NCBI RefSeq assembly: GCF_019968905.1
Contig: NZ_CP079946.1
Span: forward strand, 7,909,356 to 7,973,355
Direction: 5' to 3'
Length of the DNA: 64,000 bases
Origin: Corallococcus sp. EGB
GTDB taxonomy: Bacteria; Myxococcota; Myxococcia; Myxococcales; Myxococcaceae
Positions 44,719 to 49,901 of the stretch are shown here, piece by piece. The notes under the pieces were generated by a model, which did not search any database, was not told the origin of the DNA, and was given only the letters and a program-made list of their open reading frames with translations. A program made the position numbers and the translations under genes. Numbering within the stretch: position 1 is the stretch's first letter; every line of letters begins with the position of its first letter.

Positions 44719-45606
44719 ATGACGAAGGCTGTCTTCACCACCTCGGAAGGCTCGGCGTATGACGATCAGCCCGAGGTGCGCTACCACTTCCCGCGCACCT
44801 ATCTGCGGCAGGTGGAGGCCGCCGTCGGGGAGTTGATCCTCTACTACGAGCCTCGCAGGGCCAGCGGCCCCGGGAGCTCGAACGGACGGCAGGCGTATTT
44901 CGCCGTCGCGAAGGTCCGCGCCGTGGAAGAGGACCGGATACAGCCCGGCCACTTCTACGCACTCATCGAAGACTTCCTTGAATTCGACCACCCCGTGCCC
45001 TTCCGGGAGGGGGACCGCTACTACGAGGAGGCCTTGCGCAAGGCGGATGGCAGCACGAACAAGGGCGCGTTCGGCCGGGCCGTCCGGCCCCTGGAGGACT
45101 CGGAGTTCGAGCTCATCACGCGCCTGGGCTTCCGCCGCGAGTATGCCCCGTGGGAGTTGCCCACCGCTGGCGTCGCGGAGCCGCCTCCCGTCTATCCGGA
45201 GCGGCCGCTGGAACAACTGGTCATCTCACGTCCCTTCCGGGACGACGCCTTCCGGCACAACGTGCGCCGCGCCTACTCACAGACCTGCGCCATCTCCGGC
45301 TTGCGGCTCATCAATGGCGGCGGGCGGCCCGAGGTCCAGGCGGCGCACATCCAGCCCGTGGCGTCCCACGGCCCCGACTCGGTTCGCAACGGACTGGCCC
45401 TGACAGGCACGGTGCACTGGATGTTCGACCGGGGCCTCGTCTCCGTCGACGACGAGCACCGCGTCCTGCTCGCGACCCGCGACGTGCCCGAGGAGCTGGG
45501 GCGGCTCGTCCAGCCCCACCGCCAGCTGCGGCTGCCGGACCGGCCCGAATGGCGGCCCCACCCCAGCTACCTGAGGTGGCACCGCGAACACGTCTTCAAG
45601 GGCTGA
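44719..45606 (+). CDS. HNH endonuclease with N-terminal PUA/EVE-like domain
   Basis: A 295-residue protein. The C-terminal half is an HNH_2-type nuclease: YSQTCAISGLRLINGGGRPE, VQAAHIQPVASHGPDSVRNG and LALTGTVHWMFDRGLVSVDD, with His in AAHIQP, Asn in VRNG and His in VHWMFD. The N-terminal half (PEVRYHFPRTYLRQVEAAVG, YEPRRASG, AYFAVAKVRAVEEDRIQPGH) has the beta pattern of PUA/EVE/YTH-like folds that read modified bases. That pairing is the build of type IV, modification-dependent endonucleases such as EVE-HNH enzymes. ATG 44719 has GGGAG three bases upstream. It is a lone gene, with no methylase nearby. Confidence 0.8.
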   Translation: MTKAVFTTSEGSAYDDQPEVRYHFPRTYLRQVEAAVGELILYYEPRRASGPGSSNGRQAYFAVAKVRAVEEDRIQPGHFYALIEDFLEFDHPVPFREGDRYYEEALRKADGSTNKGAFGRAVRPLEDSEFELITRLGFRREYAPWELPTAGVAEPPPVYPERPLEQLVISRPFRDDAFRHNVRRAYSQTCAISGLRLINGGGRPEVQAAHIQPVASHGPDSVRNGLALTGTVHWMFDRGLVSVDDEHRVLLATRDVPEELGRLVQPHRQLRLPDRPEWRPHPSYLRWHREHVFKG

Positions 45607-46587: not shown

Positions 46588-46761
46588 GTGCTGGTTTCCT
46601 TTCCTGGAACAGCTCCGGAGCATGCCAGACCTTGCCCGGATCCCGTGAGACGGAATGCCGCATCGCACAACCACCAATGACTCACATCGCCACCGCAGCG
46701 CGCAACAACACGCTGACCCACCCAGACAAACCCCAACAACAGATGAATATGGAATGACCCA

Positions 46762-46790
46762 TTGATTTCTCATTCTTCCAGATTTTATAT
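46762..46790 (+). promoter_or_regulatory. Candidate sigma-70-type promoter of the lanthipeptide operon
   Basis: TTGATT at 46762-46767 and TTATAT at 46785-46790, 17 bases apart, lie in a strongly A/T-rich island unlike the rest of the window, about 50 bases before the precursor gene. A GAAGGA ribosome site follows at 46827-46832. Confidence 0.5.
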
Positions 46791-46840
46791 TTCTTCTGCT
46801 TCAAGGCAGTGAATTCACCCCAACCCGAAGGATATACACC

Positions 46841-46966
46841 ATGAAGAAGATCCTCGACCTGCAGAAGCTGGCCGCTCCGGACACCACTGCGGTTGCCGAC
46901 AGCACCAGCAGCGTGATGTGTATCGCCATTGGCGGTGGCAACAGCGGCTGCAGCGTCGGCTGCTAG
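46841..46966 (+). CDS. Class III-like lanthipeptide precursor peptide
   Basis: A 41-residue peptide too short for routine gene finding. The leader is MKKILDLQKLAAPDTTAVAD and holds ILDLQ, matching the (I/L)xLQ element by which class III synthetases know their precursors. The core, from S21, has two exact S-x-x-S-x-x-C motifs: STSSVMC (S21, S24, C27) and SGCSVGC (S35, S38, C41), plus a spare C37, joined by a Gly-rich stretch. These motifs are the usual sites of labionin or lanthionine rings. ATG 46841 has GAAGGA eight bases upstream. A terminator-like hairpin and then the lyase-kinase gene follow. Ring type and leader cut site are unknown. Confidence 0.88.
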   Translation: MKKILDLQKLAAPDTTAVADSTSSVMCIAIGGGNSGCSVGC

Positions 46967-46991
46967 TCCTGTCTTCGCAGTGCTGAAGCCG

Positions 46992-47024
46992 GGAGGGGCC
47001 GGCGTTCCGGCCCCTCCTGTTTTC
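46992..47024 (+). terminator. Attenuator-like hairpin between precursor and synthetase genes
   Basis: GGAGGGGCCGG (46992-47002) pairs perfectly with CCGGCCCCTCC (47007-47017) over a CGTT loop and is followed by TGTTTTCC. It lies 25 bases after the precursor stop and 33 before the lyase-kinase start. As a leaky terminator it would give much more precursor than enzyme message. Confidence 0.75.
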
Positions 47025-47049
47025 CGGCCCCGGCGCGCAGGAGCCTCCC

Positions 47050-48537
47050 ATGGAAGAGATTTCCCCCTACACGCTGTCGGATCCGGACTATTTCGAGACA
47101 CTGGGCCGCTTTCCTGGCGGCGAGCAGTACTCCTCGCTCCTGAAGCAATTGCTACCTGCCGACTGGACGGTGAACCGGTTCGACGTCTTCCTTCAGGCGA
47201 AGTCGGAGCGCACGGTCCTCAAGCCCCAGGGCTTCAAGATTCACGTCTCGTCGCCGGTGGCTTCCGCCGAGACGACCTTGCGCCGCATCGTACCGGAGTG
47301 CGTCCGCCGGGGCGTCATGTTCAAGATCGTCGCGGCGCCCATGCTGCTGCGCTTCCAGAATTCCAAACGCTATTCACGTGGCGGGTCGGGCAAGTTCGTC
47401 ACCATTTATCCGCCGGACGAGGCCACCTTTCGGGACCTCATCGAAGCGCTTCACCAGAACACCCGGGACCTCGTTGGCCCGTATGTCCTTTCAGACAAGC
47501 GCTATCGCGACAGCAAGGTCATCTTCTACCGCTACGGTGGTTTCCAGCGCATGTACAACCTGCGCATCGACGGCATGCGAGACCTGATGGTGCGCAAGCC
47601 GGACGGCAGTTGGGTCAACGACCTCCGCCTGCCCTACTTCGAACTCCCGGACTGGGTCCAGGACCCCTTCGCGGACATGGAGGAGGCTGAAGCGAAAGGC
47701 GAGTCGGAACTGCTGAACAACCGCTACGCGGTCCAGGAGGCGCTCGCCTTCACCAACACGGGCGGCGTCTACAAGGCCGTAGATCAGCGCACCGGCAGCT
47801 TCGTGGCACTCAAGGAGGCGCGGCCCCACACGGAGACCTGGCTGGGCGCGGAGCGCACCGTGGACGCCACCATGGCGCTGCGGCAGGAACATGAAATCCT
47901 GCGCCGGCTCGAAGGCCTGCCCTGCGTCCCGCAGCCCATCGAACTGTTCGAGGAGTGGGAGCACACGTTCCTGGCGGTCAGCTTCTTCGAGGGCATCCCC
48001 CTGGCCAAGCTCCGGGCCCAGGACGACTTCATCATCATGACCTACATGGAGGACCCGGCCCGCGTGGTCCGCTTCTGCGTGGAGTGGAGGGACATCGCGC
48101 TGCGGCTCTTCGACGCGCTGGAGTCCATCCACGGCAGGGGCGTGCTCGTGGGAGACCTCTCCCCCGGCAACGTGCTCATTCATCGACCCACGGGGGCACT
48201 GGGCTTCATCGATTTCGAGGGGGCGTTGATCCGCGGCGGCCACTCGCCGTTCTCCGCCCAGTGGTTCAACCCCGGCTTCCGCCGGCCCGAACGGCGTGCG
48301 GCCCGCTCCCTGGAGCCGGAGGACGACTACTACGCGACGGGGATGCTGCTCTACAACCTTATCTGCCCCATCCAGAACCTGTTCGAGCTCGACAAGTCCC
48401 ACCCCCTCTTCCGGGTGCTGGACCACTTCATTGAGGCCGGCCTGCCTTCGCAGACCCGCGCAATCATCCAGTTGTTGCTGGAGGGACGCTTCGAAGATGC
48501 CCGCCAGTCCACCCGCGCGTGGAACCCGGCCGCGTAG
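47050..48537 (+). CDS. Lanthipeptide synthetase, lyase and kinase domains only
   Basis: A 495-residue protein matching the first two domains of class III LanKC. The N-terminal region of about 200 residues (GFKIHVSSPVASAETTLRRI, VPECVRRGVMFKIVAAPMLL, GKFVTIYPPDEATFRDLIEA) is the phospho-Ser/Thr lyase of the OspF-like group. The kinase (about 220-480) has VALKEARPH with the ATP-binding Lys, VLVGDLSPGNVLI for the catalytic loop and GFIDFEGA for the metal site. It should phosphorylate Ser/Thr in the precursor and eliminate phosphate to make dehydro-residues. It stops after the kinase, so the cyclase must be the next gene. AGGAG lies six bases before ATG 47050. Confidence 0.88.
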   Translation: MEEISPYTLSDPDYFETLGRFPGGEQYSSLLKQLLPADWTVNRFDVFLQAKSERTVLKPQGFKIHVSSPVASAETTLRRIVPECVRRGVMFKIVAAPMLLRFQNSKRYSRGGSGKFVTIYPPDEATFRDLIEALHQNTRDLVGPYVLSDKRYRDSKVIFYRYGGFQRMYNLRIDGMRDLMVRKPDGSWVNDLRLPYFELPDWVQDPFADMEEAEAKGESELLNNRYAVQEALAFTNTGGVYKAVDQRTGSFVALKEARPHTETWLGAERTVDATMALRQEHEILRRLEGLPCVPQPIELFEEWEHTFLAVSFFEGIPLAKLRAQDDFIIMTYMEDPARVVRFCVEWRDIALRLFDALESIHGRGVLVGDLSPGNVLIHRPTGALGFIDFEGALIRGGHSPFSAQWFNPGFRRPERRAARSLEPEDDYYATGMLLYNLICPIQNLFELDKSHPLFRVLDHFIEAGLPSQTRAIIQLLLEGRFEDARQSTRAWNPAA

Positions 48538-48575
48538 GCCACGCCCCCCGCCGCCCCCCTCCCAGGAACACCCTC

Positions 48576-49766
48576 ATGAACTCCCTCGCCGCTCGCGCTC
48601 CGCAGGACGAAGTCCCCCCGCGGGCCGCCCCTGAAACGGCCCCCTTGCACCGCGCGCTCCAGGACCTGGCGCGGGACATGCTCGCCACCTTGGATATGAC
48701 GCGCTCGGACAGGCTCTTCGCCCAGGACGCCATGGGGTTCCAGACGAACCCGCTCAACCTGGCGTACGGCGCCAGCGGTCCCGCGCTCTTCCTGCGCTCG
48801 GTGCTGGGCGAACTACCGCCCCAGGTGCGCGACTGGTTGGCGGCCCAGCCCGTGGACCTCGCGAACTACCCGCCAGGCCTCTACTCGGGCCTCGCTGGCA
48901 TCGCCTGGAGTTTCGCCGAGGTCGGCCTGCTGGAGCGCGGACGGGAACTCTTCGCCCTGGCCATGAAGTCCCCACTGGCCCTTCGCGCCGTGGACATGTT
49001 CGACGGGGCCTCCGGCTGGGGCATGGCCGCGCTGGCGTTCCACCTGCGCACCCGGGACCCGGGCTACCTGGAGCACGCCGTCCGCGCGGGGCAATACCTG
49101 CTGACCCGGGCGGAGCGCTCCTCCCATGGGGTGTCCTGGCGCAACGACTTCGACGGCGCCGTCCGGCTGGGGTTCGGCCTGGGCAACAGCGGCGCGGCCT
49201 ACTTCCTGCTCTGCCTCTGGCGCGCGACCAGTGAGCGGAAGTACCTGGATGCCGCCCGGGACGGACTCGATTTCGATGTCGCCCACGCCCAGGCCCAGGG
49301 GGAGAACCTCGTCTGGGGGACCACTGCTGGGGCGGAGGGACACCGCCCTTACTGGCTGCGCGGCGGCGCGGGGGTGACCTCCACCCTCATCCGCTTCTTC
49401 GAGGTCCTCCAGGACGAGCGCTACCTCCACCTGGCCCGCCGGGGCGCCCGTCCCTGTGGCGCCTTCTTCTCCGCCGCTCCCCACCTCTTCGAGGGCCTGG
49501 CCTCCATGGGGGAGACCCTGCTGGACATGCACCGGGTGACGGGGGAGCAGCACTACCTGGACCAGGCGCGGCAGAAGGCCCACCAGTGCCTGCTGTATCG
49601 CATCGAGCGCCCCCAGGGCCTGGCCTTCCCTGGCCGCTACCTCATGCGCATCAGCCATGACTTCGGCGTGGGCGGCGCGGGCATCGGGCTGTTCCTGGAC
49701 CGTGTGCTCAAGCTCCAGCCACGGAAGTTCCACGACCTCCCCCTGGACACGCCCCGCACGGGCTGA
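48576..49766 (+). CDS. Stand-alone LanC-like cyclase lacking zinc ligands
   Basis: A 396-residue alpha/alpha-toroid protein that corresponds to the missing third domain of LanKC. It starts with its own AGGA site eight bases before ATG, 38 bases after the lyase-kinase stop and in another frame. Toroid repeats include YPPGLYSGLAGIAWSFAEVG, LGFGLGNSGAAYFLLCLW and the end SHDFGVGGAGIGLFLDRVL. Where LanC enzymes have W-C-x-G and C-H-G for zinc, this has WLRGGAG and LFEGLAS, so all three ligands are lost, as in class III cyclase domains. It should close the thioether rings of the precursor. Confidence 0.85.
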   Translation: MNSLAARAPQDEVPPRAAPETAPLHRALQDLARDMLATLDMTRSDRLFAQDAMGFQTNPLNLAYGASGPALFLRSVLGELPPQVRDWLAAQPVDLANYPPGLYSGLAGIAWSFAEVGLLERGRELFALAMKSPLALRAVDMFDGASGWGMAALAFHLRTRDPGYLEHAVRAGQYLLTRAERSSHGVSWRNDFDGAVRLGFGLGNSGAAYFLLCLWRATSERKYLDAARDGLDFDVAHAQAQGENLVWGTTAGAEGHRPYWLRGGAGVTSTLIRFFEVLQDERYLHLARRGARPCGAFFSAAPHLFEGLASMGETLLDMHRVTGEQHYLDQARQKAHQCLLYRIERPQGLAFPGRYLMRISHDFGVGGAGIGLFLDRVLKLQPRKFHDLPLDTPRTG

Positions 49767-49795
49767 CCCGCCCCGCGCTGGCCACCGCGACCGTG

Positions 49796-49828
49796 CACCG
49801 GGGGCCCCCAGGCCCCTCCGGGTGTTTC
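49796..49828 (+). terminator. Possible terminator after the cyclase gene
   Basis: CACCGGGGGCC is followed by an inverted GGCCCCTCCGGGTG (ending 49824) with bulges, then TTTC. If real it would separate the lanthipeptide operon from the acylase gene. The pairing is imperfect. Confidence 0.35.
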
Positions 49829-49901
49829 AGCGCGATCCACGACCGGCCTGTTTCTACAATCATGAGGGATTTTCCTTTTCACCTTGAAAGGAATTCCCCG
49901 A

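Follow-up and report, generated by a model that had tools for sequence, protein, structure and literature searches.

A probable class III lanthipeptide cassette with a naturally split LanKC synthetase in Corallococcus sp. EGB

Introduction

ThurKC, the andalusicin synthetase (PDB 8sao, 8sap, 8sam; PMC10604976), is a single protein with a lyase, a kinase and a metal-free cyclase, and in that account it is split only in the laboratory. When cut after residue 486, its lyase-kinase part is inactive alone and becomes active with the cyclase added in trans (PMC10604976). The hand-split halves formed no stable complex, and the authors had no explanation for the activation. Here we analyze a locus at positions 46841-49766 of the window, a stretch of 64,000 nucleotides from Corallococcus sp. 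EGB (contig NZ_CP079946.1; source genome of 9.43 Mb in one contig, labelled G000), in which the same three domains are encoded by two genes downstream of a short precursor gene. We consider it very likely that these genes form a self-contained cassette for a class III lanthipeptide, with the LanKC synthetase divided between a lyase-kinase (LanK) and a cyclase (LanC).

Other described systems share single features with the cassette. CuvL, the curvocidin synthetase (8car), is trifunctional by its entry title, unlike the LanK and LanC pair. Boletupeptin of Melittangium boletus (PMC12328550) is likewise a myxobacterial class III lanthipeptide and is compared here by citation only. Class V systems (LanK/LanY; PMC10604976) place dehydration and cyclization on separate proteins, as the cassette does. 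Class V LanK, however, resembles APH and works beside a separate HopA1-like lyase, whereas lyase and kinase of the cassette form one RamC-type protein. The nearest precedent for one lanthipeptide enzyme in two genes is the split LanB of class I (pinensin; PMC7268733), which belongs to another class and another chemistry. No natural class III split was found in the searchable literature as far as examined, mostly by title and abstract; this literature omits most subscription journals. The separate cyclase of class V is known as LanX.

A probable split class III synthetase

The cassette consists of three genes in one direction, each preceded by a purine-rich site (AAGGAT, AGGAG and AGGA, in gene order):

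46841-46966, + strand: precursor peptide gene, 41 aa (open reading frame, conservation, dN/dS, shuffle test)
47050-48537, + strand: LanK, lyase-kinase, 495 aa (Pfam, NCBIfam, solved-structure matches, residue mapping)
48576-49766, + strand: LanC, stand-alone cyclase of class III type lacking zinc ligands, 396 aa (Pfam, NCBIfam, alignment, model)

The preliminary description of the locus had read a lyase-kinase and a LanC-like gene downstream of the precursor and in the same direction, and the Pfam matches agree. LanK matches RamC_N (202.8 bits) and Pkinase (58.2 bits) and ends after the kinase, and LanC matches LANC_like (83.8 bits). The preferred start of LanC, from reading the sequence, is ATG 48576 with AGGA upstream rather than GTG 48519. 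With a stop at 48537 and a new gene from 48576, the three domains are not in one polypeptide. LanK ends at residue 495, between the kinase and cyclase domains like the ThurKC cut, and its profile match to ThurKC stops short of this end.

The two proteins share out the NCBIfam class III LanKC model (833 positions), with LanK covering 3-458 (439.2 bits) and LanC 478-832 (242.2 bits). Each half alone misses the equivalog cut-off of NF038151 (575 bits), which a fused sister in genome G063 passes with 716.8 bits. By homology the synthetase belongs to class III, but with its domains on two polypeptides and each half under the cut-off it is better termed a split variant than a strict LanKC. The solved sequence closest to LanK is ThurKC (8sao, E 2.6e-54; 3.8e-86 with a profile). 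For LanC the closest solved entry is 9wj0/9wop, which bears the deposited name 'protein kinase domain-containing protein', followed by 8car and ThurKC; CuvL matches LanK as well. The earlier assignment to class III is thus borne out by homology of enzyme and precursor, and the closest solved relatives of the lyase-kinase are class III LanKC enzymes, consistent with action on short peptides.

A class IV or class V system in place of class III appears extremely unlikely. The separate kinase and cyclase are reminiscent of class V, class IV LanL is the second-best NCBIfam match (347.6 bits for LanK, 190.6 for LanC) and LanK has a weak APH match (25.9 bits). However, the class III model outscores class IV for both halves, and a RamC-type protein uniting lyase and kinase stands in place of the APH-type LanK and separate HopA1-type lyase of class V. 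Cyclases of lanthipeptide systems other than class III retain zinc ligands, according to PMC7268733, and the zinc-binding cyclase of class IV is not found here. The ligand positions in LanC are occupied by L261, F305 and E306, so LanC is read as zinc-free as in class III. A LanC model, built from only four sequences and with a pLDDT of 65.3, has its best fold matches in CuvL (Z 27.0, rmsd 3.8, 322 aligned, 25% identity) and ThurKC (Z 24.0). Many non-lanthipeptide toroids (mannosidases, epimerases) also reach Z 20-24, and the fold alone is therefore no proof of function.

Distribution and history of the split

The scans took in 96 family genomes and 195 phylum genomes, and 22 places in 18 of the phylum genomes reached the cut-off of E <= 1e-30. 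Eight loci, the window's own included, have at least 61% identity to the window LanK and are treated here as the clade. They lie in six of the 96 family genomes (G000, G029, G028, G021, G015 and G063), with two loci each in G000 and G063. The nearest relative with the same locus is G029, of the same genus as the window genome. The clade is supported by 100/99 in the LanK tree and 100/100 in the LanC tree. LanK and LanC are split in seven loci and fused in one (L038 in G063), a single-frame read-through of LanK into LanC, so that the LanC part follows LanK in all eight. LanKC reads as fused in all 14 of the more distant relatives found in the phylum, with the L046 locus ending inside the cyclase. 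A scan of named genomes gave four loci, three of them outside the phylum, that read as fused, L041 and L042 matching only partly. A separate lyase-kinase and LanC is unusual for class III.

The fused L038 is nested within the clade in the LanK tree with supports of 89/95 and 90/96, just below the tool's mark, and the LanC tree leaves its place inside the clade without resolution. With two changes required by either tree, the most economical history is a single fission and a later re-fusion. If the first ATG of LanC is its start, LanK and LanC in L032 and L033 share 22 nt, read in different frames, so that a single indel can switch between the split and fused states. The window and G029 have a gap of 38-40 nt and a new start. 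The L038 fusion could be genuine or a frame error of that assembly.

The ease of this switch bears on whether the split is merely the frameshift or nonsense wreck of an ordinary LanKC, or a sequencing error, with the locus dead or misread. A single indel could separate the overlapping L032 and L033 from the one-frame L038. Yet seven split loci in six genomes have differing stops and spacings, and the window and G029 have the gap with its new start. LanK is under purifying selection (dN 0.060, dS 0.410; dN/dS figures here compare the window with G029 only), LanK and LanC are conserved across almost their full lengths, and the precursor is conserved. We regard decay or misreading as highly improbable.

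Three loci bear further on the split. L038 (G063:C1:5343000-5362500) stands fused among split relatives and shares its genome with the split cassette L033; switching back and forth between the two states may be easy. The window genome has a second split cassette, L032 (G000:C1:8240000-8256000), with a LanK 64% identical to that of the window and the precursor MKKVLALQQLAAKENECLRDSTSSLQCSLTCAR; cross-talk between the two cassettes is possible. In G046, a lone RamC_N and kinase protein of ~535 aa (L063 9009-10625, the same gene as in L020) has no LanC-like gene in the surrounding 19.9 kb, apart from a chance match of 25 residues (E 0.36). This orphan lyase-kinase may represent another route by which the cyclase is lost.

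Precursor peptides

The precursor gene translates as MKKILDLQKLAAPDTTAVADSTSSVMCIAIGGGNSGCSVGC, with SxxSxxC motifs starting at S21 and S35 and Cys at positions 27, 37 and 41:

46841-46870, + strand: leader helix M1-L10, with M1, I4, L5, L7, Q8 and L10 spaced as in ThurA1
46901-46921, + strand: core motif 1, S21-T-S-S24-V-M-C27, with S21, S23, S24 and C27 invariant in 8/8
46943-46963, + strand: core motif 2, S35-G-C37-S38-V-G-C41, with S38 and C41 invariant in 8/8

An amphipathic LQ-type leader and a Ser/Ser/Cys core are both present, and the leader spacing equals that of ThurA1 (M-22, V-19, L-18, L-16, Q-15, L-13), as numbered in PMC10604976. A short gene occurs at the equivalent place in all eight loci. 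Invariant residues are M1, K2, L5, L7, Q8, L10, S21, S23, S24, C27, S38 and C41, and position 4 is always I or V. The precursor at the fused G063 locus has an extra residue near its start, which sets the first leader spacing off by one. The window has 742 frames that run from stop to stop over 25-120 aa. One of them has a leader-like motif and two SxxSxxC, and the same filter on 40 order-1 Markov shuffles gave a mean of 0.0, which argues that the precursor is not due to chance. Its dN is 0.021 and its dS 0.157, from few sites. Translation, shuffles and conservation thus uphold the earlier claim of a 41-residue precursor with a leader element and two exact SxxSxxC motifs, and the short gene expected at this place in related genomes exists.

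Across the clade, the precursors fall into two types. Type A (five: window, G029, G028, G021, G015) has two SxxSxxC motifs with a Gly-rich linker between them; type B (three: the second window-genome copy and two in G063) carries a single SxxSxxC and, after it, an SxxC. The exact double motif of the preliminary description therefore holds for type A but not for type B. All eight precursors have exactly three Cys. The unpaired Cys37 recurs in type A, whereas in type B the third Cys precedes the first motif, at position 17 or 19. Because S24-x-x-C27 and S38-x-x-C41 are kept in all eight while the third Cys moves, two rings at S24/C27 and S38/C41 form a plausible conserved theme, with a third Cys without fixed place. 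The earlier proposal of a two-ring, Gly-bridged product, with lanthionine or labionin, is plausible on these grounds. The loss of four waters once predicted is one option only, as S23 is invariant. If the core begins at S21, its calculated monoisotopic mass is 1888.779 unmodified and 1816.736 after four losses of water (18.011 each). ThurA1 undergoes 11 dehydrations (PMC10604976), and the cassette product would differ.

The invariant Cys 27 and 41 bear on whether LanK might suffice alone, giving a dehydrated peptide that is uncyclized or cyclizes spontaneously, with LanC as an accessory or acting on another substrate such as that of the second cassette. The presence of two cassettes in one genome would fit. 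However, both Cys are invariant, the LanC part follows LanK at every clade locus, and the ThurKC lyase-kinase is reported to be inactive alone (PMC10604976). We consider a self-sufficient LanK unlikely.

NCBIfam scores the window precursor at 27.4 bits for lanthi_III_b, just below the cut-off of 30. An L-x-LQ leader is shared with SapB/AmfS, for which the precursor reaches 16.1 bits (RamS) and 16.7 bits (SapB_AmfS), both short of the respective cut-offs (24.3 and 25). The core spacing of SapB differs from that of the precursor. None of the eight clade precursors reaches an NCBIfam precursor cut-off, so automatic annotation would probably overlook them. A search with the leader DNA pattern found nine places in eight of the 96 genomes, seven at clade loci and two beside fused LanKC; the pattern was exact, so that the L038 precursor with its extra leader residue was missed and differing leaders would escape. 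Several fused LanKC loci of the family have LSLLLC- or LSLLAC-type cores. In G037 and G035 (L008, L009 near 4200; L052, L053), the precursor of a fused LanKC lies downstream of the enzyme, MKKVLALQQLAPKSDFDPLSLSSLVSISCCKGTQPK.

Conserved residues of the two enzymes

Residues reported as important for ThurKC (PMC10604976) were placed on the LanK and LanC alignments. The eight lyase residues K65, H67, K94, K108, K117, D152, R163 and R191 are identical in all eight clade members. Kinase residues K257, E279 and D364 and the DFE motif are kept in LanK, as expected of a Ser/Thr kinase with DFE (window residues K255, E280, D369, D388, F389 and E390). Asn366 as given in PMC10604976 is not placeable, being Gln in ThurKC by the numbering used. 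Of the leader pocket, Y148, R112, Y243, E258, W302, F306 and F236 are kept, I230 is replaced conservatively and L225 is lost. In the cyclase, S608 corresponds to LanC D140, the position paired with NisC Asp141 in PMC10604976, and several other residues differ.

Insertion and neighborhood

The cassette sits in the genome as an insertion:

46612-49831, no strand: inserted cassette, approximate ends (BLAST of seven empty same-genus sites)

In the empty sites the homologous flanks end at 46603-46611 and begin again at 49830-49850. A DUF4440 gene and a penicillin amidase gene flank the cassette at a distance of 3,314 bp in the window genome. Two of 16 genus genomes (G000, G029) have the cassette at this site, and in seven the two flanking genes are adjacent, 147-273 bp apart. 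In the others they lie 8.0 and 19.4 kb apart (two genomes), on different contigs (three), or lack a close match for one or both (two). The G028 cassette occupies another site, with flanks 3,399 bp apart that are separated by 85-230 bp in 15 of 15 other genus genomes, the window's included. Because the cassette occupies different places in different species, it was probably gained horizontally or moved. No repeats of at least 14 nt were found at the insertion ends, and no transposase among the window neighbor genes scanned with Pfam.

Among the neighbors scanned, only the penicillin amidase (49884/49902-52352) is a hydrolase from a peptidase-like family. It was rejected as a leader peptidase of the cassette and belongs to the old flank, not the insertion, as copies 91-94% identical stand beside DUF4440 in seven cassette-free sites. 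As noted earlier for this locus, no transporter or protease was found among the window neighbors scanned with Pfam, where four of ten in one set had no Pfam match and gene calls were crude. Across the eight loci, no shared transporter, protease or regulator stood beside the cassette within ~9.5 kb or less per side, using crude codon-G+C gene calls. Neighboring families that form part of its context were common to the window and G029 only, besides one weak pair within L033. Two neighbor entries opposite the LanC strand in L032 and L033 were discarded as shadow frames. An HNH_2 endonuclease gene (44719-45606, 41.4 bits) lies near the window cassette and is missing from the syntenic locus of G029.

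Proposed mechanism and significance

Gene structure, conservation, kept active-site residues, a single split clade and insertion at two sites are observed. We infer the reactions, ring topology, in-trans activation and product. The N-terminal helix of the precursor would dock through M1, I4, L5, L7 and Q8 in the groove where lyase and kinase meet. The LanK kinase would phosphorylate core serines, and the lyase would eliminate the phosphates to give dehydroalanines. Acting in trans and metal-free, LanC would then join C27 and C41 to residues 24 and 38, respectively, and the enolate may continue to residue 21 or 35 to form labionin. LanC is probably required to switch LanK on as well. A hairpin after the precursor gene (see below) probably yields more peptide than enzyme, and leader removal and export could fall to host proteins. 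Secreted surface-active or antagonistic peptides are likely for the class in general, and the cassette data favor neither.

Several points weigh against this reading. The reactions are proposed from sequence, and neither a leader protease nor an exporter was identified among the cassette and its neighbors. ThurKC kinase residues R275 and T399 are not kept in LanK, although Thr is present at 399 in one clade row. The cyclase residues R519, R610, D657 and D667 correspond to LanC M53, F142, N190 and L202 and are not kept either; both pairs are unconserved by sequence among labionin makers, and models mostly show a basic residue near R610, according to PMC10604976. The LanK fold model (mean pLDDT 44.6) was too poor and went unused. 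The analogy for in-trans activation comes from the artificial split of a distant enzyme whose halves formed no stable complex, and with one clade member fused, splitting is not essential.

Beyond the cassette itself, we tentatively suggest, with rather more doubt than confidence, that the pair could be an obligate natural two-protein synthetase, in which LanC closes the rings and activates LanK in trans while the leader holds the two together. Partners might be exchangeable between the two cassettes of the genome and give more products than operons, and the whole might be a minimal three-gene mobile unit that borrows a host protease and exporter.

The natural split appears to mirror the hand-cut ThurKC experiment (PMC10604976). 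The pair MECHANISTICALLY offers a direct test system for mutual domain activation in class III synthetases: proteins that evolved separately should hold the activating interface, and the fused sister can serve as control. Splitting also keeps loci of this kind out of sight. A genome survey (PMC7268733) assigns class III or IV only where one protein matches both the kinase and the LanC domain, and the equivalog cut-off misses both halves. More such loci may therefore await among 'unclassified' LanC genes.

Expression signals

Two candidate signals lie around the precursor gene:

46762-46791, + strand: promoter-like site TTGATT-18-TATATT, weak (one found against 0.3 expected)
46985-47024, + strand: strong hairpin between precursor and LanK (inverted repeat I1, fold z -3.48)

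The promoter-like spacing, read by eye, is not visibly kept in G028, G021 and G015. No terminator was called in the terminator scan, the hairpin included. A hairpin with fold z below -3 occurs in six of the eight loci, with -1.61 and -0.25 in the remaining two, and its sequence varies between loci. An attenuator or partial terminator that holds the precursor in excess of the enzyme is a likely role, and the differing hairpin sequences would fit a partial terminator.

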